Below are positions 1 through 16,521 of a stretch of DNA of 22,115 bases, one piece after another. Both the position numbers and the translations under genes were made by a program. The notes beneath the pieces were generated by a model. That model was not told the origin of the DNA, did not search any database, and worked only from the letters and a program-made list of their open reading frames with translations. Source of the DNA: a virus; IMG/VR virus record IMGVR_UViG_3300009011_000059, positions 1 through 22,115 of that record, one strand, 5' to 3'. Numbering within the stretch: position 1 is the stretch's first letter; every line of letters starts with the position of its first letter.

Positions 1-155
1 ATCGCCTCGCCCTGTTCCTCGATCCCGGCCCACTCCATCAGCTCCAGCAGGGCCTGTTTAGTCCCTGGTCGAACCTTCAAGCGCAGGTCTTCTTCCTGCA
101 AGCGTTCGGCCTTGGTCCTGCGCTTCTCATCACGCTGCTGCTGCGTCAGAGCCAT
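1..155 (-). CDS. Small phage protein, 3' end outside window
   Basis: This reading frame runs leftward off the window edge, so only the first 51 codons are visible (MALTQQQRDEKR..., later LRLKVRPGTKQALLELMEWAG). It is Lys/Arg/Glu rich at the N-terminus. The start at 155 is chosen because GGAGG lies 5 nt upstream; an adjacent ATG at 158 has only 2 nt of spacing. It overlaps the end of the upstream gene by 26 bases, which suggests translational coupling. I recognise the general look (start MALTxxQR, later 'LMEWAGIEEQGEA') from short uncharacterised proteins of Pseudomonas prophages, but I know no function. Confidence 0.7.
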   Translation of the reverse strand, partial: MALTQQQRDEKRRTKAERLQEEDLRLKVRPGTKQALLELMEWAGIEEQGEA

Positions 156-477
156 CATCGCCTCCATTGCGCACGAAGGTGGCGCCCGGTCCGATGTCGA
201 GCAGGTCGCACACCCGGTTGATGATCTTGAGCGCGGCATCGAACGCCTTGGCGTCGTCCGGCTCGCGGGCTAGGCGCTTCATGTTCGGCTGATGCTCAAG
301 GCACACTTTGTCCACCAGGCGCCGGGCCAGCCTGCGCAGGTGGTCGGCGCTGTCGTGGAAACGCAGGCTCAGGGCAAAGGCCATGGCCACATCATCAGGC
401 CGGTACTGGCCGCCGCTGCGGGTGTTGTACAGCTTGCGCACCGGCTTGCGCAGCGGGGAAACGATTGCTTGTGCCAT
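130..477 (-). CDS. Hypothetical phage protein, 115 aa
   Basis: The product is uncharacterised. The start at 477 (MAQAIVSPLRKP) is preferred because AGGAGG lies 6 nt upstream; the frame is open further up to 522 without a ribosome site. The N-terminal 25 residues are basic (PLRKPVRKLYNTRSG). The middle is helical with conserved-looking HDSADHLRRLARRLVDKVC, and the C-terminus ends in a Gly/Asp/Ala tail. No signal peptide or membrane segment is seen. It lies in the leftward early operon between the RMF-like gene and the truncated gene at the window edge, so an early lytic role is an inference from position only. Confidence 0.7.
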   Translation of the reverse strand: MAQAIVSPLRKPVRKLYNTRSGGQYRPDDVAMAFALSLRFHDSADHLRRLARRLVDKVCLEHQPNMKRLAREPDDAKAFDAALKIINRVCDLLDIGPGATFVRNGGDDGSDAAAA

Positions 478-518
478 GCTCGACCTCCTGCAGGCCGCTT
501 GGGGGAATGTGGGATTGC

Positions 519-728
519 TCACGCCGCCTGTGCAGTTGCAGCGATCGGCGGATTTTTCGGTTCATGGGATAACTCCATGTCGCAGTCATGCCAGCCCGCG
601 AGCCACCAGGCGCTATCGACCGACATTTCGGGGTGAGGCTGGTAGGCTCGGCACCGGCCAGCAGCCCGAGTGGTACGCCCTTGGTAGTAGGGCAGTGGGT
701 GGATCTTTTCCGGCTTGACTCTTGGCAT
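519..728 (-). CDS. RMF/CrpP-like small protein
   Basis: A 69-residue protein. Residues 13-52 have the layout of ribosome modulation factor and the related CrpP family: an aromatic YYQG, then RAAGR, a Pro-containing spacer, and a terminal WWLAGWHDCDME resembling the 'W-L-x-G-W' end of RMF. RMF binds the 30S subunit and promotes 100S ribosome dimers in stationary phase; whether this phage copy touches ribosomes is unknown. The C-terminal 17 residues form a Pro/Ala tail not found in RMF. The start follows the stop of the upstream gene by 2 nt with a GGGGGT Shine-Dalgarno-like stretch. The family assignment rests on the motif layout only. Confidence 0.6.
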   Translation of the reverse strand: MPRVKPEKIHPLPYYQGRTTRAAGRCRAYQPHPEMSVDSAWWLAGWHDCDMELSHEPKNPPIAATAQAA

Positions 729-730
729 GG

Positions 731-1243
731 CTACCCCCGGTGCCGCTGAAGCGGGAAGTTGATCTTGAACGCCACCAGGATTCGCTCGAGCTTGCGATTC
801 CCGATCCCCAGCTTCGCGGTTACCCGGGTCCGAGAATCGCCGGCGTCACGGAGAGCGATGATCTGATCGGCGAGCGCTCGATCTTCCTTTTCCTGATCAG
901 CCGCGGACTTCGTTGGCCGGGCCGCCCTGGGCGGGGAGAAGAACTTGAAGCCCTCCCGGGCAGCCACGCCCCAGAGCGCGCCTTTGGTTTCCCCAAGGAG
1001 CTCCGCAACCTCACCGCAGCTCATGGTCTTGGCCAACTCGGCGACCTTCGCTGCGCGGGTCCTGGCTTTGGTTACCTGCTGTCTTTCGGACTTGCGGGCG
1101 GCAGGCTTGGCCGGCTTCTGCTTGGGGTCTGGGTGCTTGCGCTCGGGTAGTGGTCGGTAGGTGAAACCCTCCAGCACGACAAGCTGACCACCAGAGGCAA
1201 AGAAGGCCGCTTGTGCGGCCTCCAGGTCGATTGATGGGTTCAT
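731..1243 (-). CDS. Putative HTH DNA-binding phage protein, 170 aa
   Basis: The N-terminal 30 residues (LVVLEGFTYRPLP) are followed by a Lys/Pro/Ala-rich linker (about 33-60). Two segments then look like helix-turn-helix units: about 64-100 (AELAKTMSCGEVAELLGETKGAL) and about 118-160 (QIIALRDAGDSRTRVTAKLGIGNRKLERIL). The second resembles a resolvase-type HTH. The start overlaps the stop of the exonuclease gene as ATGA, so the two are coupled. A DNA-binding role in recombination or regulation is inferred from the HTH look and the neighbour; no catalytic motif is visible. Confidence 0.65.
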   Translation of the reverse strand: MNPSIDLEAAQAAFFASGGQLVVLEGFTYRPLPERKHPDPKQKPAKPAARKSERQQVTKARTRAAKVAELAKTMSCGEVAELLGETKGALWGVAAREGFKFFSPPRAARPTKSAADQEKEDRALADQIIALRDAGDSRTRVTAKLGIGNRKLERILVAFKINFPLQRHRG

Positions 1244-1875
1244 GCTGCCAGCCCCTCTTCTATGGTTTTCTTCACCTGGGCGACCAGTTCAAGGAACTGT
1301 GCCCGACGCTCAATGAGCCTCGGCAGCTCCTCCTTGAAGTCATCCCGGTCTTGCCTGTACACGATGAGCTGCCCGCTTTCAGGAAAGTCCGAGCAGTAGC
1401 TCACGAAGTCCACCCAATCCCTTCCAGAGCAGTCGAGGTGACCGACCAGTTGCCAGCGGTATGAAGGGTCGAATGACCCACGGCGCAGGGTGTCGTAGTG
1501 GACAGAAGCGATCACCGACTTGATTTCGATAACCCCGTCTTGGCCGATTAACCCGTCAGGCGAATCTCCGAACTCGCCGCAGTCGTAAAAGCCGCCATTG
1601 GTCACTTCGACGAAGCGCTCATCCTCGTAGAGCATTCTGGCAACCGGCTCCTGCTCATGTCCGCGATCGGTATCGGCGTTTTTGAAACCGAACTCAGCTT
1701 TTCGCCCGGTCAGCTGCTCCAGGGCGAGTTGTAGCGCGTACTTCTTCGCAGGCTCGCCGAAAGCCTTTCCGTCGTTCGCCATGAAGCAGGCGAAGTTCGA
1801 TGCCGTGGCCTTTCCGGTGCGCAGGGCCTGCCACACCTCTGTGTTCTGCTCGATGTCATGCCACAGCCGATTCAT
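1240..1875 (-). CDS. YqaJ/lambda-type exonuclease (viral recombinase)
   Basis: A 211-residue nuclease of the PD-(D/E)xK superfamily, YqaJ/lambda Exo branch. Such enzymes resect duplex ends 5'-3' and hand 3' single strands to an annealing protein for phage recombination. The N-terminus has W-x-x-L-R-T-G-K-A-T-A-S (15-26), typical of YqaJ proteins. The catalytic triad is visible as D107 (SPDG), E117 and K119 (IEIKS), with the 10- and 2-residue spacing of lambda Exo D119/E129/K131. A conserved-looking RGHEQEP lies at 71-77. The start at 1875 has GGAG 8 nt upstream; an upstream in-frame start at 1914 lacks one. It overlaps the gene to its right by 20 bases, forming a likely recombination cassette. 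Confidence 0.9.
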   Translation of the reverse strand: MNRLWHDIEQNTEVWQALRTGKATASNFACFMANDGKAFGEPAKKYALQLALEQLTGRKAEFGFKNADTDRGHEQEPVARMLYEDERFVEVTNGGFYDCGEFGDSPDGLIGQDGVIEIKSVIASVHYDTLRRGSFDPSYRWQLVGHLDCSGRDWVDFVSYCSDFPESGQLIVYRQDRDDFKEELPRLIERRAQFLELVAQVKKTIEEGLAA

Positions 1876-2377
1876 TGGCGCACTCCTGCATGAGCTGTTG
1901 CTGGTGTTCGTCACTCATCGCCAGGCGAGCGAGCACTGCATCAAGGTTGCCATCGCGCTTGAATGCGTTCTTGGCATTGCCCCAGGCCTTCTGGTTTTCC
2001 GGGGTAAGCCACGCCACTGTCGGCGCCTTAGGGCTGATGCGCAGGCCTTCCATCACCTCGCGACCGAACTTCACATTGGAGTCGACGTAAATAGTGACTC
2101 TCACACCCTGCCAGTCCTCAATGAACGGCGAGCCGGTCAGGGCCTTCAGGGTCTTGCTGTTGGTAACGTTCAGGATCATCGGCTTCAGCTTCTCGCCCGG
2201 GCGGATCTCGCGCTCGGCAAAGTAAGCAGTGTTGAATTGATCCTTGGTCTTTTTGGTCTTGTCCGTCTCCAGCGCTACGCGAGCAATGGTGAAGGTCATG
2301 TGGCCGACGACATCGGCGCTGCTCAAGTACGGGCTGTTGAAAGCCTTCTTGAAGTGGGTTTTCGATTCGTTGGACAC
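1856..2377 (-). CDS. Unknown protein paired with exonuclease; candidate recombination partner
   Basis: A 173-residue protein starting VSNESKTHFKKAFNSPYL (GTG start, GGAG 7 nt upstream; an alternative GTG at 2434 would add 19 residues with a weaker context). Visible features are a basic TDKTKKTKDQFNTAYF stretch, EIRPGEKLKPMILN, and a globular middle rich in beta-type residues (QGVRVTIYVDSNVKFG). The C-terminus is helical and Gln/Glu rich. I recognise it as a recurrent phage protein but not as Beta, RecT, Erf or a canonical SSB. Its position directly upstream of the exonuclease, with a 20-base overlap, is where an annealing or ssDNA-binding protein sits in other phages, so that role is a reasonable inference. 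Confidence 0.75.
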   Translation of the reverse strand: MSNESKTHFKKAFNSPYLSSADVVGHMTFTIARVALETDKTKKTKDQFNTAYFAEREIRPGEKLKPMILNVTNSKTLKALTGSPFIEDWQGVRVTIYVDSNVKFGREVMEGLRISPKAPTVAWLTPENQKAWGNAKNAFKRDGNLDAVLARLAMSDEHQQQLMQECANESAVA

Positions 2378-2552
2378 GATTCGTCTCCGCGCCAGGCCGG
2401 CGCCGTCAGTTGGAATAGGGAATCGCCAGGTCACCCAGGCACGGAGGTACGCTCCAGGCCCTGGCTGCGGTGGATGGTTGCGCGCTCTCGCCGCTTACGC
2501 TCCCGCATGGGGTACGGTTATCCCGAAGGGCCGCCGTGCTCGGCTACGTGAA

Positions 2553-2669
2553 TCAGGAAGTGATGGTGCCGGCCAGTGCGCTCAGGAGGAGCCAGCCGGT
2601 GAAGAAGGTGAGGGCGATGAAGGAGCCACGCCAGGTAGCGATACGGCGTGCACGCTGGTAGCTGGTCAT
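2553..2669 (-). CDS. Small single-pass membrane peptide, 38 aa
   Basis: The start at 2669 lies 4 nt after the stop of the upstream gene, with only a weak AGG about 9-10 nt before it. The peptide has a basic N-terminus (SYQRARRIATWR) followed by a hydrophobic segment at about 15-36 (FIALTFFTGWLLLSALAG). This predicts one membrane helix with the N-terminus inside. The frame is open up to 2849, but that extension reads through the neighbouring gene in another frame. The function is unknown. Confidence 0.45.
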   Translation of the reverse strand: MTSYQRARRIATWRGSFIALTFFTGWLLLSALAGTITS

Positions 2670-2673
2670 GGCT

Positions 2674-2895
2674 TCAACCTGGAAGGTTTGGCTTGGGGAT
2701 ACGCTTGAAGTTTTGGACTGGCTGAAGCTTCGAGACACCGTACCAATGGCACTGGGGATTTTTGGCGATTGAGCGCAAGGAAGCGAGAATGCATTCCTTG
2801 TGCATAGGGCCTCGAAAACCTCCGCCCAAGTAATGACGCAGATGGCCATTGAACTTGATCAGGTCAAGGTTGCTGTGGAAGTAGCGCTGGCTCAT
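2674..2895 (-). CDS. Hypothetical phage protein, 73 aa
   Basis: The start at 2895 overlaps the upstream stop as ATGA and has GAGG 7 nt before it. The protein (MSQRYFHSNLDLIKFNG...) is basic and aromatic, with a GGGFRG turn and a C-terminal VQNFKRIPKPNLPG tail. No known domain or membrane segment is visible. It belongs to the run of overlapping small genes of the leftward operon. Function unknown. Confidence 0.65.
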   Translation of the reverse strand: MSQRYFHSNLDLIKFNGHLRHYLGGGFRGPMHKECILASLRSIAKNPQCHWYGVSKLQPVQNFKRIPKPNLPG

Positions 2896-3113
2896 GCGCG
2901 CACCTCATACCCAACTGTCCACTCGCCGCACATCCACCAACTGCGGCTGACAGCCTCAGGATTTTCGATGAACGCCTCGGCAGCGGCTCTCTTGGCGTCA
3001 AACAGCGTCGGACCCTTGAAGAGCATTAGCACCCGGTCACCAGGCATGGCTTGGGCCTCGGGCAGTTCAGCGACCTGGTCGTCGATGATCGACGGGAAAA
3101 CTGGCGTGGTCAT
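2892..3113 (-). CDS. Hypothetical phage protein, 73 aa
   Basis: The start at 3113 has a near-perfect AGGAGG 4 nt upstream and overlaps the previous stop as ATGA. The sequence is acidic at the N-terminus (IIDDQVAELPEAQ) and has a helix DAKRAAAEAFIENPEAV. It ends in RSWWMCGEWTVGYEVRA with three Trp residues. It looks like a small globular cytoplasmic protein. No family recognised. Confidence 0.7.
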   Translation of the reverse strand: MTTPVFPSIIDDQVAELPEAQAMPGDRVLMLFKGPTLFDAKRAAAEAFIENPEAVSRSWWMCGEWTVGYEVRA

Positions 3114-3304
3114 GCAACCTCCTTGCGCCCATCAACGATCTTGTTGAGGCGCCCGCAGTAGTGGTTGAACTCTTCGATGGTGATGCGCTGGTCGGCCAGC
3201 ATTTCGGTGAGGAGCTTCTGCACCATGACGCTCCAGCTCAGATCCGTGCCGGGGTGTGCCATGGCGTCGAGTTCTTCGTCGATCAGAACGTGCGGGCTTC
3301 TCAT
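3110..3304 (-). CDS. Hypothetical phage protein, 64 aa
   Basis: The start at 3304 overlaps the upstream stop as ATGA and has GAGGAGG about 4 nt before it. The protein is small and probably all-helical (MVQKLLTEMLADQRITIEEFNHYCGRL), with an N-terminal SPHVLIDEELDAM. It has no membrane segment or recognisable motif. It is part of an overlapping three-gene block (3714 to 2892), so stoichiometric co-expression is likely. Confidence 0.65.
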   Translation of the reverse strand: MRSPHVLIDEELDAMAHPGTDLSWSVMVQKLLTEMLADQRITIEEFNHYCGRLNKIVDGRKEVA

Positions 3305-3714
3305 TGCGCCTCCTCGGCCTGGGCCAGAACCCCTTCCTTGGCGAAGGGGGTTAGCAGCTGGCGGGCGATCTCTTCAAGCGCTGCCTCTGGGTTCGCAACG
3401 CTCATGATCTCGTCGGCCGCTGCCTTTGCGTCGCCGGTGACCTTGGAGCGCGCCGCCAGAACCAGGCGGCCCAATACCGAGTTACTGATGCCGTTCAGGC
3501 CCAGCTGGCCCATCACGAACTCATCCACCGCCTGGGCGAAGCGCTCATAGGTGACACCCTGCTTCGGGCGCATCCGACGCTGAAACACAACGTCGCGGCG
3601 CGCCATCAGCTCAGCGATGCCATCGTCGACCCACAGGCGCTCCCGCACATCGTCCGGGTGCTCGCCTGGAAGGCGGTTGTCGTACTCAAACTGTGCTGCT
3701 CGAAGTGCGCCCAT
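3301..3714 (-). CDS. Hypothetical phage protein, 137 aa
   Basis: The N-terminus (MGALRAAQFEYDNRLPGEHPD) and the helical remainder are of a kind I have seen in Pseudomonas phage early regions, without known function. Visible blocks are a basic RRDVVFQRRMRPKQG stretch (about 39-53) and alanine-rich helices towards the C-terminus. The start has TGGAGG 5 nt upstream. The 16 bases around this start are identical to those at the start of the gene at 3975, which points to a duplicated initiation segment. Confidence 0.7.
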   Translation of the reverse strand: MGALRAAQFEYDNRLPGEHPDDVRERLWVDDGIAELMARRDVVFQRRMRPKQGVTYERFAQAVDEFVMGQLGLNGISNSVLGRLVLAARSKVTGDAKAAADEIMSVANPEAALEEIARQLLTPFAKEGVLAQAEEAQ

Positions 3715-3726
3715 GGTCGCCTCCAG

Positions 3727-3975
3727 TTACGGTTGGGATGCTCGATAGCGCCGCATGAGGCCTTTAGTCAGGCGCTTCATGATTCGCGGGTATCGGTCGG
3801 GGTGATGAAGTCGGCAGTAGAGGTGTTCTCTGCCATAGCCCTCGTGATCGCAGTAGTCGCAATCGCAGTGCTTCTTGAGCAGTGCACGTGCCTCAGCTGC
3901 GCATGCGGCGCGAAGGGTGAACCAGCGACGACCGCCGCCACGGAAGACGGCAGCAGCCTCGACTGTGACGGCCAT
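3727..3975 (-). CDS. Cys/His-rich small protein, possible zinc binder
   Basis: An 82-residue protein with HCDCDYCDHEGYG followed by REHLYCRLHHPDRYP (about 36-62). The clustered Cys and His residues could bind one zinc ion, which is inferred from residue spacing only. The flanks are basic (MKRLTKGLMRRYRASQP at the C-terminus), compatible with nucleic-acid binding. The start has TGGAGG 5 nt upstream. No named family is recognised. Confidence 0.6.
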   Translation of the reverse strand: MAVTVEAAAVFRGGGRRWFTLRAACAAEARALLKKHCDCDYCDHEGYGREHLYCRLHHPDRYPRIMKRLTKGLMRRYRASQP

Positions 3976-3995
3976 GGTCGCCTCCAGGTGGTGGG

Positions 3996-4409
3996 TCAGT
4001 CTGTATATGCGATGTACTTGAAGCGGCCATTGCCGAATTGCTCGAAGCGGCCGCCGAAGGTGCCGCGAATCTCCTGCTCAACCTCCTCGCGGCTCATGTG
4101 CGGCGGGTATACCCCTTCCTTGATCATCGAGAAGTGGGTGTGAGGCACGAAGCGCCAATCGACCTTGCTTGGGTCAAGCGGTTGCGGCTCGGGCGGCTGC
4201 CACGGCTTGCCCTTGTAGGTCTCGGGTGGCGGCGGTGGGTCTTCCGACTCCTCCCAGCCGCAGACTTCGCAGTAACCGCGCGGTGCGGTGCAAGCGCCGC
4301 ATGGTGGAGATATGTGGCAACTGCAATTAACCACCTTGTGAGATTCGATGACGCCCTCACAGCCGTCACGGCCGCAGGTATCGCCCTCGCAATATCCGAG
4401 TTCGCTCAT
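3996..4409 (-). CDS. Cysteine-rich phage protein, putative zinc ribbon, 137 aa
   Basis: The N-terminal half contains many Cys residues: CEGDTCGRDGC, then CSCH, CGAC and CEVCGWEE, the spacing expected of one or two zinc sites. A proline-rich linker (DPPPPPETY...QPPEPQPLDP) follows. A C-terminal globular part holds HFSMIKEGVYPPHMSREEVE and GGRFEQFGNGRFKYIAYTD. I recognise the MSELGYCEG start from other Pseudomonas prophages. The start at 4409 is preferred over an in-frame ATG at 4436, although its ribosome site is weak (GAG about 9 nt away). Confidence 0.7.
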   Translation of the reverse strand: MSELGYCEGDTCGRDGCEGVIESHKVVNCSCHISPPCGACTAPRGYCEVCGWEESEDPPPPPETYKGKPWQPPEPQPLDPSKVDWRFVPHTHFSMIKEGVYPPHMSREEVEQEIRGTFGGRFEQFGNGRFKYIAYTD

Positions 4410-4520
4410 GTTCGTTTGCTCGTGTGGCAACCGCATTGGCCAGGAGCCAGGCGCGGGTGACCAAACCCACCGTGAAAGGTGGCCTGGCGCCTGCCTAATG
4501 CGGTCGAAAATTAGAAGTGG
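4410..4520. other. Gene-free spacer with nested inverted repeats
   Basis: GCCAGGC at 4446-4452 pairs with GCCTGGC at 4482-4488. An inner CACC/GGTG pair (4468-4471 and 4478-4481) encloses a GAAA-type loop. There is no run of T on either strand, so a classical terminator is not supported. It separates the homing-type endonuclease from the downstream operon and could be a processing or border element. Confidence 0.4.
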
Positions 4521-5009
4521 TTAGAGGTGGCAAGCGAACTCGCCGTGGAGCCTTTCCCGGGCGGCAGCAACTTGCTCTGCCGCGACCTGGACGTTGTGGA
4601 AATACCCGAGGATGTGAACCACCTTGTTGCAAGTGATTGAGGCTCGCCACATGCCTTCATGTTTGTCCCAAATGACGCCCTTTACGCCGCTGACGCTGCG
4701 GTAGGAGCGACTGGTGTTCTGACTGTTCTGCGCCGCAGTGGCCTCGCGCAGATTCGCCCAAACATTGTTGTTTGGGTTTCTGTCGATGTGATCAACCTGA
4801 TCTGCAGGCCAGGCCCCAGTCATGTAGAACCATGCGAGGCGATGGGCTCGGTAGCCCTTCTTGTCGACCATGATGTAGATGCCTTTTTCGCCGCAGATAT
4901 AACCGGCAGGCTTTCCAACAACTCGGGTGCCTTTCGATTGGAGCCAGGTAAAGACCCCGCTTTCAGGGTCGTAAACCAATAGCTCGCGCAGGCGCTCATG
5001 CGTCAGCAT
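4521..5009 (-). CDS. HNH endonuclease with AP2 DNA-binding domain
   Basis: A 162-residue free-standing homing-type endonuclease. Residues 53-90 give the HNH core: H56 (AHRLAWFYMTG), D73-H74 (QVDHIDRNPNNN) and the Asn cluster with NLREAT. Residues 105-155 form an AP2-like domain (SGVKGVIWDKHEGMWRASI...LGYFHNVQVAAEQVA), which binds DNA in this family. Such proteins nick or cut specific sites and spread their own gene. The start has AGGAG 6 nt upstream. The gene interrupts the otherwise overlapping operon and is flanked by non-coding DNA on both sides, consistent with a later insertion. Confidence 0.88.
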   Translation of the reverse strand: MLTHERLRELLVYDPESGVFTWLQSKGTRVVGKPAGYICGEKGIYIMVDKKGYRAHRLAWFYMTGAWPADQVDHIDRNPNNNVWANLREATAAQNSQNTSRSYRSVSGVKGVIWDKHEGMWRASITCNKVVHILGYFHNVQVAAEQVAAARERLHGEFACHL

Positions 5010-5132
5010 TTGCGTCTCCTTGAGTTGATTAGTAGGAAAGGGTGCAGGCGGTGAGCGCTACCTCACATGCATCTGGTCTGGCCGGGTGGGCCCCGGATTC
5101 GCCTGCGTGTACGTCGATTAATGTTTACTGCG

Positions 5133-5159
5133 GTGAGCCTTAACCTTCATAAGGCTCAC
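5133..5159. repeat. Palindrome GTGAGCCTT-N9-AAGGCTCAC
   Basis: The two 9-bp arms (5133-5141 and 5151-5159) are perfect inverted copies around a 9-nt loop. No U-tract follows on either strand, so it is unlikely to be an intrinsic terminator. The arms contain the GTGAGC core shared with other repeats in the island, so it could be a protein-binding site or an RNA hairpin. Confidence 0.7.
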
Positions 5160-5185
5160 GGTGATGAGCTTTAAATCGATGAAAA

Positions 5186-5393
5186 CTGCATCGGTGAGCG
5201 ATCTGGCCGGTGCTGATCTCCGGCTTGCGAACCATGCCGAGGTAAACGGCTTGCGCCTCCCTCAATGCCAGTTATTACGACCCGGTACCGCGCGGGCATA
5301 TGAAACTACTTAGCCGGTATCGATCGTTCGCGGGAACTGTTTGCTTTCAAACCTGCGCATCAGCCTGCGCAACCAGATCGCTCACCGATGCAG
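5186..5393. repeat. Perfect 21-bp inverted repeat flanking 166 bp
   Basis: The left arm at 5186-5206 and the right arm at 5373-5393 are exact reverse complements, beginning CTGCATCGGTGAGCG on the left. They enclose 166 bp without an open frame. No target-site duplication is visible next to the arms. The unit could fold into a long-stem RNA or be a miniature mobile element. Confidence 0.85.
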
Positions 5394-5444
5394 CCTGCGA
5401 TGGGGAGCAGGGCATCGGGCAGTTAACGTCAGGCTGACGGGGTT

Positions 5445-5963
5445 TCAGTGGAAAACGACGGCGCCGCCGTCAGCCGCAACCTCGAAGGCAACTTTCCACT
5501 CTTGGTACTTTTCCCAGAAGTAGCCGCCAACTGCCTCGGCTTTCTCCGCAAAGTCGGCGTAGTCCTTGGCCAGCTTCGCGCTGACCACTGGGCCGATGGT
5601 GCCGTCGCAGTCCGAGAACAGGATCTGCTCGTAGAACGGGCCTTCACCTGCCTTGTTGGCACCTCCGAAGTATGGGAAGCGCTTTTCGTACTCATCGCTT
5701 GGGCTGGCATCCGGCGTGTAGCCGGCAAGCTTCGCCAGTTCATCGCGCCATGCGCTGTAGCGACCGTAGCCAGTGCTCAAGCCTGAGCCTTCCTCGCCAA
5801 GCTTGTAGGTCATTCCCTCTTTCAGGCCCTCGGCGCGGCCGGGGAAGTCCTTGTTGAAGTAGAAGTCGCGGTAGTTGTCGTAGTCGACCAGGTCGCCGTC
5901 CTTGTCACGCTCGGCGTCAGGCGCCTCGACCAGCTTGCTGTATGCAGAAACGTCCAAGCCCAT
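5445..5963 (-). CDS. Conserved hypothetical phage protein, 172 aa
   Basis: I recognise the MGLDVSAYSKLVEAPDAE start as typical of an uncharacterised family in Pseudomonas phages and prophages. Features are an acidic Asp/Tyr-rich segment (DKDGDLVDYDNYRDF), KDFPGRAEGL, a Gly/Ser/Tyr turn (GSGLSTGYGRYSAWRDELAKLAGY), ILFSDCDGTIGPVVSAKLAKDYADF, and a C-terminal WEKYQEWKVAFEVAADGGAVVFH. No membrane segment is present. The start at 5963 has GGAGG 8 nt upstream; the frame extends to 6077, but that part crosses the terminator hairpin. It is the first gene after that terminator, so it needs read-through or its own promoter. Confidence 0.75.
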   Translation of the reverse strand: MGLDVSAYSKLVEAPDAERDKDGDLVDYDNYRDFYFNKDFPGRAEGLKEGMTYKLGEEGSGLSTGYGRYSAWRDELAKLAGYTPDASPSDEYEKRFPYFGGANKAGEGPFYEQILFSDCDGTIGPVVSAKLAKDYADFAEKAEAVGGYFWEKYQEWKVAFEVAADGGAVVFH

Positions 5964-6030
5964 TGCTTGTTCCTCCGGTTGATTTCCCGGCAGCCACTCG
6001 CGGGAATGGCTGCTAGTGAAATCGCAGGCA

Positions 6031-6055
6031 CAAAAAAGCCCGAGTTGATCGGGCT
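6031..6055 (-). terminator. Intrinsic terminator in leftward operon (tL1-like)
   Basis: On the minus strand AGCCCGA-TCAAC-TCGGGCT forms a 7-bp stem with a 5-nt loop (6055 to 6037). It is followed directly by TTTTT (6036-6032). It lies between the first and second genes of the PL operon, the same place as tL1 after N in lambda. Confidence 0.85.
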
Positions 6056-6073
6056 GTGTTTTGCTGCTGAGCC

Positions 6074-6313
6074 TCAACGCCTGCTGCTGGGGAGGTCCGT
6101 ATAGCTGACGAACAAGAACTTCCCGCGATCCATGGCGAAGTAAAGCCAGCCGGCCTTGAGTTCTGGGTCATCCGCAGAGGTGCGAGCCTCGTTCCAGCAG
6201 AAACCCGGTACAACTTCAACGCCCCGATGCTCTTCAACAATCCTCTGGATACTCCACTGACCAAACTCGCCAGCTGTAGCGATAAGCCTTTCCATGAACT
6301 CGCAGACTTCCAC
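6074..6313 (-). CDS. First gene of the PL operon, unknown protein, 79 aa
   Basis: The GTG start at 6313 has a perfect GGAGG 5 nt upstream; the longer frame to 6388 would run into the leader hairpins. The protein (VEVCEFMERLIATAGEFGQWSI...) is acidic and ends KAGWLYFAMDRGKFLFVSYTDLPSSRR. It has no Arg-rich N-terminal motif, so it does not look like a lambda N antiterminator despite the equivalent position before the first leftward terminator. Its role is unknown. It would be the only protein made from PL if transcription stopped at 6031. Confidence 0.7.
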   Translation of the reverse strand: MEVCEFMERLIATAGEFGQWSIQRIVEEHRGVEVVPGFCWNEARTSADDPELKAGWLYFAMDRGKFLFVSYTDLPSSRR

Positions 6314-6678
6314 GTTGACCTCCAATCTGTTTTCGATACGAGCAGTATTACATGCCTGATTCCCAATGCCGCCTCGTGGAAGCGGCATCAGTGAATCTCG
6401 TGGTGTTTCCTCACTGATCGCGCTGTGCCAGGTGCTGACGCCCGTTCTGAGGGCATCCCGGCAGGGAGCGTTTGCAGCGCAACCCTTGGCCCGCTTGACG
6501 CTTTCAGTGAGGGAGCGTGCCGCATGGCTTCGAGCTGGCCAGTTCCAGAGCTGGCATGGGGATCGAATTTATTGCTCGCGCTGTGCCGTTGCCGGGATCG
6601 ATCCGCGAGGTTCCCATCAATGTGAAAGAGCGGTGAGGCTTGAGGGCCTCCGCAGTCCCTGTTCGGTGACTGCGTGTT
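6314..6678 (-). ncRNA. Structured untranslated leader of the PL transcript
   Basis: The leftward transcript predicted from PL runs about 365 nt before the first ribosome site. It can form at least six hairpins: 6651-6674 (7-bp stem), 6635-6650 (5 bp), 6538-6555 (5 bp), 6437-6457 (7 bp with one G-U), 6387-6418 (8 bp) and 6366-6388 (7 bp). The last two are adjacent, share two bases, and both display CCACGAG in the loop. No antiterminator gene is evident, while a terminator follows the first gene. A cis-acting antitermination RNA, like put of HK022, is one hypothesis. Confidence 0.55.
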
Positions 6679-6684
6679 GAGGCA

Positions 6685-6713
6685 AATATCACGCATCGTG
6701 TTTTTAATGTCAA
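6685..6713 (-). promoter_or_regulatory. Leftward early promoter PL
   Basis: On the minus strand a perfect -35 box TTGACA (6713-6708) is followed by a 17-nt spacer and GATATT (6690-6685) as -10. Start of transcription is expected near 6678. One operator lies between the two boxes and another covers the upstream edge of the -35, so repressor binding would block it. Confidence 0.8.
6688..6702. promoter_or_regulatory. Putative repressor operator OL1
   Basis: ATCACG-CAT-CGTGTT matches the operator pattern found next to cro. It sits in the PL spacer. Its centre is 24 bp from the next site. Confidence 0.7.
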
Positions 6714-6726
6714 CACGATATGTGAT
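6712..6726. promoter_or_regulatory. Putative repressor operator OL2
   Basis: AACACG-ATA-TGTGAT has the same left half and centre as the site at 9113-9127. It overlaps the upstream end of the PL -35 box by two bases. Confidence 0.7.
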
Positions 6727-6770
6727 TTATTTTTCTTCGGGTGTGATGAGGAAAATCCTCACAAGGCGGG

Positions 6771-6799
6771 TTCACGTTTCACAGAGCGTGATGTATGCT
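6771..6799 (+). promoter_or_regulatory. Possible promoter of the DUF1654 gene with operator in spacer
   Basis: TTCACG (6771-6776) and TATGCT (6794-6799) are spaced by 17 nt. Each matches 4 of 6 consensus bases. The spacer contains TTCACAGAGCGTGAT (6778-6792), which fits the repressor operator pattern CAC-N5-GTG seen at 9091-9105. Confidence 0.45.
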
Positions 6800-6810
6800 C
6801 GCCAACAGTG

Positions 6811-6826
6811 CTGGATGGATATACAG
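6811..6826. promoter_or_regulatory. LexA-like SOS box
   Basis: CTG-N10-CAG, with the right half TATACAGTA matching the proteobacterial LexA consensus well and the left half less so. It lies 17 bases before the start codon of the DUF1654 gene. This suggests induction by DNA damage. Confidence 0.55.
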
Positions 6827-6842
6827 TAATGGAGAGCGGTCT

Positions 6843-7169
6843 ATGTCCAAGCAGAAAAAAACGGCGGCCAAAGAGCGCCAGGAAATGACCGGAGTTGAGC
6901 GTCTAGGGCTCCGCGTATCGTCGATGATTAATCACCCCCTGGCGCAGACACAGCGCTGGGTGACGATCCATCGCCTGGACACGGATGGCGACATGGAGTG
7001 GGAAGAGGTGATGGGGCTGCTTTCGGAGACCCCAGAGCTTGATTTGACCTTCAATGACGATGAGAGCGTGACGGTGCGATGGGAGCTACAGAGCGCCGAA
7101 GATCGCGACGACCTAGTCATAGAGAAGGATTGGGAGGAGGAGAGAATGGAGGAAGAGGCGCCATTCTGA
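6843..7169 (+). CDS. DUF1654 family protein
   Basis: A 108-residue protein whose core (GVERLGLRVSSMINHPLAQ ... IHRLDTDGDMEWEEVMGLL ... DLTFNDDESVTVRWE) fits the DUF1654 family, which is largely confined to Pseudomonas and its phages and has no settled biochemical role. The N-terminus is Lys-rich and the C-terminus very acidic (IEKDWEEERMEEEAPF). The start at 6843 has GGAG 8 nt upstream; an upstream in-frame ATG at 6795 would start inside the promoter region. It is a single-gene rightward unit ending in a terminator, preceded by a repressor-type operator and a LexA-like box. Expression after prophage induction or SOS is therefore likely. Confidence 0.85.
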   Translation: MSKQKKTAAKERQEMTGVERLGLRVSSMINHPLAQTQRWVTIHRLDTDGDMEWEEVMGLLSETPELDLTFNDDESVTVRWELQSAEDRDDLVIEKDWEEERMEEEAPF

Positions 7170-14394: not shown

Positions 14395-14537
14395 CACCTG
14401 CATGGGGATACCTGATTTTGGCCACCCTCATGGTGGTGGGTGGTGTGGCGTTGTCCTGGGCGGGCGCAGTGCGCCGCAAGCGCAGCTACGAAGAATTCAT
14501 TTTGAGAAAGGCCAAGCGGGCAGGGGGCAAGCAATGA
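14391..14537 (+). CDS. Small single-pass membrane protein, 48 aa
   Basis: The start overlaps the ninG stop as ATGA, with GGAGG 8 nt upstream. The stop overlaps the next start in the same way. Residues 4-25 (AWGYLILATLMVVGGVALSW) form a membrane helix, followed by a basic cytoplasmic tail (RRKRSYEEFILRKAKRAGG). The positive-inside rule predicts the C-terminus in the cytoplasm. Tight coupling on both sides makes it a real gene. Function unknown. Confidence 0.75.
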   Translation: MTPAWGYLILATLMVVGGVALSWAGAVRRKRSYEEFILRKAKRAGGKQ

Positions 14538-15223
14538 AGTATCAGAGCGTTTTGGCGGCAGTAGTGCGTGCCCTCGCGGCAGAAACCATGAGCGGGGTGG
14601 GCGGCGGCGACTTCGAGCCGAAGGTCCAGGCCTCGAAGCTGAAGGGGGAGATCACCGGGAAGGATGCGGCGATGCTGGTGGACTGCTGGGTGCACGCCCG
14701 CCTGCACAGCAAGCTGATCCCGCGGCACTGGAATGCACTCACGGCCAGGTTCTCGACCCACAAGGCCAAGAAGGTGGATGCGATCGGCAAGCTGGTGCCG
14801 CTGATCGCGACTCAGGCGCCAAACCTGTTCCGGTACAAGGCAGTCACCGCCTGGGCCATCCCGCCGGTGAAGAGCGTGCAGGCGCAGTCGGGGCATGAGG
14901 TGGCCAGCCGGGCTGCCCGCGAGCGCGCAGAGTTCGATTCGCTGCACGCTGGCGTGGTCCAACACCTGGCTGGCGGCGAGATGCCGGAGGACGCCGGTCA
15001 GGCGCGCCGTGAGCAATACGTGAAGCGCTCCACCGACATGATCGTGCTCCCTGCCGAGTTCTACGACATCAACACATGGGATGGCCAGGGCCTGAACCGG
15101 ACCACGTACTGGCGCTGGAAGAAGGCCATCGAGAAGGTGCTGGACGAGATGGTGGCAGAGGCGCTGGTCGCTTCTGGCAAGATACTTCAGGAAGAAGGCG
15201 TTTTGCTGGCAGATGCCGCTTGA
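14534..15223 (+). CDS. Q-like late antiterminator (putative)
   Basis: A 229-residue protein (MKYQSVLAAVVRALAAETMSG...). The N-terminal half has KDAAMLVDCWVHARLHSKLIPRHWNALTARFSTH. The C-terminal third (YDINTWDGQGLNRTTYWRWKKAIEKVLDEMVAEAL) looks like a DNA-binding helical module. I associate this with proteins annotated as antitermination Q in Pseudomonas phages; the primary sequence gives no invariant motif to prove it. Place supports it strongly: it is the last rightward early gene and its stop codon lies inside the -35 box of the late promoter. It would let RNA polymerase pass the two terminators at 15572-15645. Confidence 0.65.
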   Translation: MKYQSVLAAVVRALAAETMSGVGGGDFEPKVQASKLKGEITGKDAAMLVDCWVHARLHSKLIPRHWNALTARFSTHKAKKVDAIGKLVPLIATQAPNLFRYKAVTAWAIPPVKSVQAQSGHEVASRAARERAEFDSLHAGVVQHLAGGEMPEDAGQARREQYVKRSTDMIVLPAEFYDINTWDGQGLNRTTYWRWKKAIEKVLDEMVAEALVASGKILQEEGVLLADAA

Positions 15224-15645: not shown

Positions 15646-15867
15646 GTTCCAGCAAGAAACGCAACTGCAGCCAGGGCAGGCCCTCATGGGACAGCCTGGA
15701 CACTGCTAGCCGGTAGTGTGGTGATACGGAAAAACACCGGCAGCCCGCGCATCCATTCCCTCACTGTGCTGATGGATGGCGCGAGACTTGACCGGCGAGA
15801 CTGGTGCATCAGGGTGCCAGCGCTGGAAGGGTCTTCGGCGGACAGGTGGGGAAAGACCCACGCATAT
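15646..15867. other. Gene-free stretch between tR' and hicB
   Basis: Only antisense or shadow frames without ribosome sites are seen. GCCGGT near 15710 and ACCGGC near 15737 form a loose inverted repeat downstream of hicB. It lacks the shape of a strong terminator. Confidence 0.4.
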
Positions 15868-16290
15868 TCACACCGGCTCGACAGACACCACCAGGCGTTT
15901 GCCAAGAGCGGCCAGGGCGATCTCAACCTGCTCGATCTTCGAGCTGTGTTCGAAGTCGAGAAGGCGATCAACTTTGGTTTGCGCGGCGCCCAGCGTCCGG
16001 CACAGATCTGCCTTCCGCATGCCCTTTTCCCGCATGGCGTTCCACAGAGCGATCTTCGCGTTCACCAGGGCGGACAGCCGAATAACGCGCTGGCCCTCTT
16101 TTGCTGGCGATGCAAGCGGGATCGGTCGCAGCTGATCGACATAGATCGACAGAGCGACCTCCAGCCCCTCAGCAGCATGGCGCAACAGCTCTTCGAGCGT
16201 ATCGCCCGCGCTGTGCGCCTCTGGGATGTCGTCACACGATGACCAGAAAGACCCGGCCTCTTCGTTGACGTTGATTGCATAGTCGAACAT
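15868..16290 (-). CDS. hicB: HicB antitoxin
   Basis: A 140-residue antitoxin. Residues 1-50 have the HicB partial RNase-H-like fold (FDYAINVNEEAGSFWSSCDDIPEAHSAGDTLEELLRHAAEGLEVAL). Residues 76-132 form a C-terminal HTH (AKIALWNAMREKGMRKADLCRTLGAAQTKVDRLLD). It should bind and block HicA and repress the hicAB promoter. GAGG lies 7 nt before the start. It is the second gene of a leftward two-gene operon, 45 bases after hicA, and stands against the surrounding rightward late genes, the usual sign of an independently acquired cassette. Confidence 0.92.
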   Translation of the reverse strand: MFDYAINVNEEAGSFWSSCDDIPEAHSAGDTLEELLRHAAEGLEVALSIYVDQLRPIPLASPAKEGQRVIRLSALVNAKIALWNAMREKGMRKADLCRTLGAAQTKVDRLLDFEHSSKIEQVEIALAALGKRLVVSVEPV

Positions 16291-16335
16291 GGCATTACCT
16301 CAGGGCAGATGATTTCGAGCTCAAAGGGTGGAGCC

Positions 16336-16521
16336 TCAATCCTTGAGGCCCAGTTGTTTGATGATTGCCTTCCTAGTCCCTTCGGCCATCTCCTTGGCCC
16401 CGTGGTTGGGAAGGGTTGTCTGTTTGCCGTTGAAGTAGAGTTTGAAGTGACTTCCCTTTGCCGTCTTCGAAACCTCTACCCCTCTTGCCAACAGCCACCG
16501 CTTGAACTCGTTACATTTCAT
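16336..16521 (-). CDS. hicA: HicA mRNA interferase toxin
   Basis: A 61-residue toxin with the double-stranded RNA-binding-like HicA fold. The pattern LLARGVEVSKTAKGSHFKL, with catalytic His25, followed by LPNHGAKEMAEGTRKAIIKQLGL, is characteristic. HicA cleaves mRNA independently of ribosomes and is neutralised by HicB. Length and motif order are complete, so it should be active. GGAGG lies 6 nt before the start. The gene begins downstream of its own palindromic promoter. In a prophage it could stabilise the element or act in phage defence. Confidence 0.93.
   Translation of the reverse strand: MKCNEFKRWLLARGVEVSKTAKGSHFKLYFNGKQTTLPNHGAKEMAEGTRKAIIKQLGLKD

Follow-up and report, generated by a model that had tools for sequence, protein, structure and literature searches.

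A conserved pseudoknot RNA with an rRNA-type boxA in the PL leader of Pseudomonas phages, a candidate processive antitermination site

Results

Organization of the PL leader and its operon

The window analyzed here is the whole of a 22,115-nucleotide stretch of viral DNA (IMG/VR record IMGVR_UViG_3300009011_000059). Its left early operon is read from the minus strand and begins with a leader of 366 nt, measured from the presumed transcription start (~6678) to the GTG at 6313 (Table 1). The first-pass annotation had described a PL leader of ~365 nt ahead of the first ribosome site, and this stretch indeed holds no usable gene. The promoter named in that annotation, TTGACA-17-GATATT, is strong and was recovered with 10 of 12 matches, the best of four sites in a scan for which about two are expected by chance; our promoter and terminator scans, written in Python, are simple heuristics. 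Inverted repeats lie over the promoter and look like repressor operators. A strong intrinsic terminator follows the first gene, as had been noted, and gene 2 (5963-5445) starts ~70 nt past it, a hairpin occupying the space. The scan returned no sigma-70-like promoter in positions 1-6320 of the window and none other for the ~6-kb operon.

Elsewhere in the window, the minus strand at 5010-5445 holds a second long structured intergenic RNA (z = -4.45), closed by a long perfect helix. The 5′ part of this RNA is conserved across many Pseudomonas phages; in phi2 and MD8, phages of P. aeruginosa, it lies immediately before a ParB-like gene. The middle (~5370-5204) is similar to sequence of a Proteus phage and has the look of an insertion, and Rfam gave no convincing match for this RNA. 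On the plus strand, 15665-15745 is a Proteo-phage-1 RNA (Rfam RF03044, 76.7 bits) downstream of the Q-position gene 14402-15223 (phrog_3412, function not assigned), and it could be part of late-gene control. A HicB-like antitoxin and a HicA-like toxin are encoded as a pair at 15868-16521 on the minus strand.

Table 1. Features of the PL leader and the start of the left early operon, in order of transcription.
Feature	Position	Strand	Basis or remark
Operator-like inverted repeats ATCACATATCGTGT (6726-6713) and ACACGATGCGTGAT (6701-6688)	6688..6726		Overlap the promoter; read directly
PL-like sigma-70 promoter, TTGACA-17-GATATT	6685..6713	-	Simple promoter scan
5′ hairpin 1, CGCAGUC...GACUGCG	6651..6674	-	Fold
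5′ hairpin 2, GAGGC-CCUCAA-GCCUC, immediately 5′ of boxA	6635..6651	-	Fold
boxA, CGCTCTTTCACA	6621..6632	-	Close match to boxA of Pseudomonas rRNA operons
Pseudoknot stem a, 5′ arm CUCGCG	6604..6609	-	Pairs with 6580-6575; helix 100% paired, two covarying pairs
Pseudoknot stem b, 5′ arm GGAUCGA	6598..6604	-	Pairs with 6566-6560; 7/8 pairs change on both sides
Inner hairpin CCG-GCAA-CGG within the pseudoknot	6586..6595	-	Homologue alignment
Pseudoknot stem a, 3′ arm CGCGAG	6575..6580	-	Covariation
Conserved A-rich linker CAAUAAAU between a′ and b′	6567..6574	-	Homologues
Pseudoknot stem b, 3′ arm UCGAUCC	6560..6566	-	Covariation
Hairpin 2, GCCAG-CUCUGGAA-CUGGC, loop near-invariant	6538..6555	-	Homologues
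Terminal hairpin GAUUC..UUCCACGAG..GAAUC, 5′ of the ribosome site	6358..6397	-	Fold and homologues
First gene, 79 aa, GTG start, SD GGAGG at 6323-6319	6074..6313	-	No family match
Intrinsic terminator between gene 1 and gene 2	6031..6055	-	6055-6037, AGCCCGAUCAACUCGGGCU-UUUUU
Second copy of the pre-RBS hairpin, ahead of gene 2	5981..6023	-	Homologues

The leader is a structured, noncoding RNA

The minus-strand leader folds at -147.3 kcal/mol, compared with -126.1 ± 5.7 for shuffled sequences (z = -3.7; none of 100 shuffles as low), and the plus-strand fold of the region is weaker (z = -2.0); such single-sequence folds cannot treat pseudoknots. The first hairpin opens at leader position +5, close to the predicted start, in agreement with the first-pass annotation. 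Of the at least six hairpins proposed there, the heavy structuring of the leader stands, but their exact number varies with the fold, and the layout backed by homologues comprises two 5′ hairpins, a pseudoknot with an inner hairpin, a hairpin with the loop CUCUGGAA, a variable middle, and one terminal hairpin. A CCACGAG repeat had been placed in the loops of two adjacent hairpins. Both copies exist (6403-6397 and 6379-6373), but the first directly adjoins the terminal hairpin at its base, and the loops of homologues differ (UUGGCGACAG, UUCGCAAGAG, and others); for this lack of conservation the repeat was rejected as the functional motif.

Other readings of the leader were also set aside. A pseudoknot joining the terminal-hairpin loop to downstream sequence (UUCC with GGAA) was rejected because an outer helix, GAUUUC/GGAAAUC, fits the same bases better by eye. 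A coding leader was rejected because the spacings between boxA and the hairpin fall into all three classes modulo three and no frame remains open; the records of phages psageK9 and MR13 annotate hypothetical proteins across the leader despite this noncoding pattern. An attenuator was rejected because the sense strand of the leader lacks a terminator of its own.

The 3′ parts of homologous leaders are modular. Nine leaders contain a Shine–Dalgarno sequence followed by a two-codon frame (ATG or TTG, AAG, TAG) inside a longer conserved block, which occurs in the 3′ part of L052, L039, L240, L241, L243, and L248; a different conserved block is found in the 3′ part of L026, L053, L066, and L236. 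The hairpin before the ribosome-binding site, of the form GAUUUCACU-stem-loop-stem-GGGAAAUCAACCGG, is repeated: it occurs at 6397-6358 and 6023-5981 of the window (minus strand), in 67 distinct copies in homologous operons, and up to four or more times in one operon (L243), with stems that vary strongly yet remain complementary. A further conserved module, GTCAGCACTC..GCGCCCANCGGCAANCAGC..GAGTGYTGACGAA, was found in 12 copies in the downstream operon of L154, L161, L239, L240, L110, L148, and others, in several loci right after operon terminators.

An rRNA-type boxA precedes a covarying pseudoknot

The boxA lies at leader +47, ~46 nt downstream of the predicted start, and homologous elements open with the same word. 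The family consensus, CGCTCTTTAACA, was derived from 87 nonredundant copies that had been preselected for a TCTTT core; in a set chosen by the downstream hairpin alone, G(C/T)TCTTT stands at the boxA position of almost every untruncated copy. This consensus is identical over 12 nt to the host rrn boxA (host rrn sequence, CGCTCTTTAACAA). Searched with a loose 3′ extension, GCTCTTTAACAA is present two to three times in each of three Pseudomonas genomes. In L258 it precedes the 16S gene by ~160 nt and follows a stretch with hairpin potential (by eye). Because GCTCTTTAACAA is found upstream of Pseudomonas 16S, we read the phage leader as carrying an rRNA-type boxA. Single-sequence folds leave boxA unpaired at 0.58, versus 0.46 for other segments, a modest excess.

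Downstream of boxA, ~10 nt are followed by arms a and b without a gap, the inner hairpin, a′, the A-rich CAACAAAU, b′, CCATG, and the hairpin with the CUCUGGAA loop. Pairing of a with a′ and of b with b′ gives an H-type pseudoknot, whose inner hairpin is a variable insertion point in some homologues. Across 21 sequences, 92.5% of cells are paired, and 18 of 28 pairs vary at both positions. The score for covariation, 0.504, compares with 0.167 for shuffles and at most 0.084 with a slid partner. About 20 different arm pairs make up stem b among homologues, and b is paired with its own b′ in 131 of 150 distinct cores, compared with 65 of 150 when the partner comes from another sequence. When the CUCUGGAA hairpin was left out of the query, a second scan yielded 52 further loci, 48 of which have exactly the CUCUGGAA loop, closed by either GCCAG/CUGGC or GCAGG/CCUGC. 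Another class of homologues has GCAGC/GCUGC. Compensatory base changes in homologues, for which the first-pass annotation had suggested a search, were thus found, and judged by this covariation the conserved leader element is a genuine RNA family. Rfam 15 had no match in 6000-6860 even at E values up to 2, leaving no known Rfam RNA as its identity, and the element is absent from the literature searched, a body of text with most subscription journals outside its coverage.

The leader RNA is widespread in Pseudomonas phages

BLAST returned only patches in a few phages, and from these a motif was taken: the pattern CCATGNNNNCTCTGGAANNNNC then brought in ~90 true homologues from viral contigs. Further homologues were taken from bacterial genomes, and occurrences were counted with a covariance model, R1. 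Phage contigs, phage isolates, and Pseudomonas genomes together supplied ~150 distinct homologous cores; well over 100 Pseudomonas phages and prophages that otherwise differ share the leader RNA. R1 matched 46 of 299 genomes of one Pseudomonas genus and 33 of 398 genomes of the family. Occurrence outside the Pseudomonadaceae was rejected: among 369 genomes of the class, the search gave, apart from the Pseudomonas genome it started from, one doubtful match (L247, E 0.004), which lacks boxA and the CUCUGG loop and was judged to be due to chance. The plasmids searched held no copy. Isolated phages with the element include psageK9, MR13, MR15, and the 'Leptolyngbya' phages Lbo-JY16 and Lbo240-yong2; UFJF_PfDIW6, PseuP_222, and VW-6S match parts of a variant leader. 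The records PP438408.1 (L003) and OP828577.1 are entered as phages of Leptolyngbya, a cyanobacterium, and have a Pseudomonas-type leader; the named host may be in error, or an accompanying Pseudomonas may be the source of the phage.

The leader RNA stays constant while the operators upstream and the first genes downstream vary. Among 137 nonredundant homologous leaders, promoter scores reach 9 or more in 62% (9% of shuffles), and the distance from the -10 element to boxA is nearly fixed, with a median of 52 nt. The repeats overlying the promoter keep their location and vary in sequence between phages, a pattern that distinct immunity groups would be expected to show. One full copy of the element was found per phage, at PL, extra matches being weak or partial only, and the PR regions of the phages checked contained neither boxA nor a second full copy. 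Strong structure and conservation would also suit a leader that is the source of a processed, trans-acting small RNA serving immunity, exclusion, or host takeover. We consider this very improbable: no terminator follows the element inside the leader, a promoter immediately precedes the element and a gene comes after it in the loci inspected, and there is a single full copy per phage.

No common protein is seen with the RNA

The first genes behind 147 leaders fall into 79 clusters, a number inflated by some false ORFs within leaders, and include, as read from their sequences, a CsrA-like protein and HNH-nuclease-like proteins. In one viral contig (L250, G998; 2088-2162, minus strand), a tRNA-Gly(TCC) directly follows the leader in place of a protein gene. 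Because of this tRNA and the 79 clusters among 147, the function of the leader is not tied to one gene. No protein occurs in more than 8 of 13 phage records, and the leader RNA is the feature most widely shared among them; a spurious ORF opposite the leader strand is common to 12 of the 13.

The earlier statement that no N-like protein is visible holds for the window proteins scanned, none of which matched an N family, and for the 13 records, which share none; N proteins are short and diverge fast, and can escape detection. An N-type system, in which a small, fast-evolving phage protein binds the pseudoknot or hairpin and acts with boxA and Nus factors, would make the RNA an oversized nut site. 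The order of boxA and then structured RNA is that of lambda nut, our scan also detects the boxA-like sequences at lambda nutL and nutR, and the 79-residue gene 1 occupies the position of N. Gene 1 nevertheless lacks an arginine-rich start as well as a family match, near-identical RNAs in different phages are followed by unrelated first genes, and no protein is common to all, so we hold an N-type system to be unlikely. Since operators and first genes vary and no protein is common, the leader RNA is more plausibly read as an autonomous cis module with no visible cognate protein.

Terminators and ribosome sites downstream of the element

Beyond the gene 1 terminator of the window, other operons contain ~11 more strong same-strand intergenic terminators, mostly with the next gene 69-133 nt on and without a good promoter between. 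Terminators are not enriched in 243 kb of these operons (23 sense versus 39 antisense), and most loci have no sense terminator within 3.5 kb.

A long, structured 5′ UTR with modular 3′ parts, in an operon along which pre-RBS hairpins are repeated, might alternatively bind a regulator of host or phage origin, or stabilize the mRNA, and in this way set the expression or lifetime of the early transcript, boxA merely shielding the long untranslated leader from Rho. The ribosome site, however, lies 35 nt beyond the last hairpin and is not sequestered, and the near-constant distance to the promoter, together with the 12-nt consensus match to rrn boxA, points to a role in early elongation. We regard a regulatory or stabilizing role as improbable.

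Discussion

The PL leader described here joins a conserved sequence and a covarying structure to a boxA of rRNA identity, stands directly behind the promoter, and is independent of operator type and downstream gene. Because boxA lies at +47 with structured RNA behind it, a terminator has to be passed, and no protein is common to the phages, we lean, with somewhat better than even confidence, toward a cis-acting processive antitermination site for the left early operon, made of an rrn-like boxA and a put-like structured part and acting through RNA and host factors. The boxA argues for host Nus factors, as at rrn and nut sites, over a purely protein-free put mechanism, and antitermination by the leader probably depends on them. 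Counted against antitermination are the lack of terminator enrichment, the single copy at PL in contrast to the pairs nutL/nutR and putL/putR, a boxA that is only mildly unpaired, and the elusiveness of N-like proteins. A broader claim is put forward tentatively, as falling a little short of an even chance: the leaders would form a new class of autonomous antitermination RNA, widespread in phages of the Pseudomonadaceae, that couples an rRNA-type boxA to a private pseudoknot and, in place of N, converts the host polymerase with host factors only.

Antitermination by this leader would proceed as follows. Transcription would begin at PL and within ~60 nt expose boxA in the RNA, flanked upstream by hairpins, after which the pseudoknot and the CUCUGGAA hairpin would fold. 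As at rrn, boxA would bring in NusB-S10, NusA, and NusG of the host. The pseudoknot module might stabilize the resulting complex or take over the part of N-boxB, perhaps through direct contact with RNA polymerase or with a Nus factor. So modified, the polymerase would then pass the gene 1 intrinsic terminator and Rho sites in the untranslated leader and the operon, with no phage protein required for read-through.

How lambda-like phages outside the enterobacteria express early operons without N is, to our knowledge, largely an open question. For many Pseudomonas phages, given its presence in 46 of 299 genomes of one genus, the leader RNA family offers an answer that can be tested, and it would unite in a single leader two principles already known, the boxA of rRNA operons and structured RNA of the put type. 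If the proposal is true, the leader would offer a small genetic element with which polymerase could be made to ignore terminators in Pseudomonas.

The known systems resemble the leader in part. The large structured cis RNAs of Bacillus-type operons, EAR and other processive antitermination RNAs, have been proposed to act on a whole operon; our element would share with them this general layout, and their hosts differ. Like lambda nutL, the leader has boxA at PL and structured RNA after it; unlike nutL, it has no recognizable N, its hairpin part is a large pseudoknot domain, and its boxA is of rrn type (GCTCTTTA) rather than of lambda's GCTCTTA type. R1 found no real match in the lambda stretch searched.

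The put sites of phage HK022, putL and putR, are ~70 nt long, consist of two stem-loops, and act without protein factors at PL and PR (PMC9378689). The leader is likewise a structured RNA at the start of the PL transcript, with no visible phage antiterminator protein and a terminator inside the operon. It differs in having a boxA and a pseudoknot instead of two simple stem-loops, and one copy, with none found at PR in the phages checked. A search of HK022 24000-40000 with R1 gave no significant match (best E = 1.8). Judged from its features, the leader element is not put, because it has one full copy at PL only and boxA is present. Of the analogy to put drawn in the first-pass annotation, the structured, covarying cis RNA survives, and the purely protein-free layout gives way to one with an rrn-type boxA.

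The antitermination site of rRNA leaders consists of a boxB hairpin, boxA, and boxC, and acts with NusA, NusB, NusE, NusG, and SuhB. The phage leader shares with it the untranslated RNA, a boxA consensus identical to that ahead of Pseudomonas 16S, and a boxB-like hairpin between start and boxA (6674-6651 and 6651-6635); unlike an rrn leader, it sits at a phage PL, with ~52 nt from the -10 element to boxA and a pseudoknot where rrn has boxC. We know of no rrn leader with a pseudoknot and CUCUGGAA hairpin downstream of boxA. The leader probably works like put or rrn, as an analogue and not as a demonstrated homologue of either.
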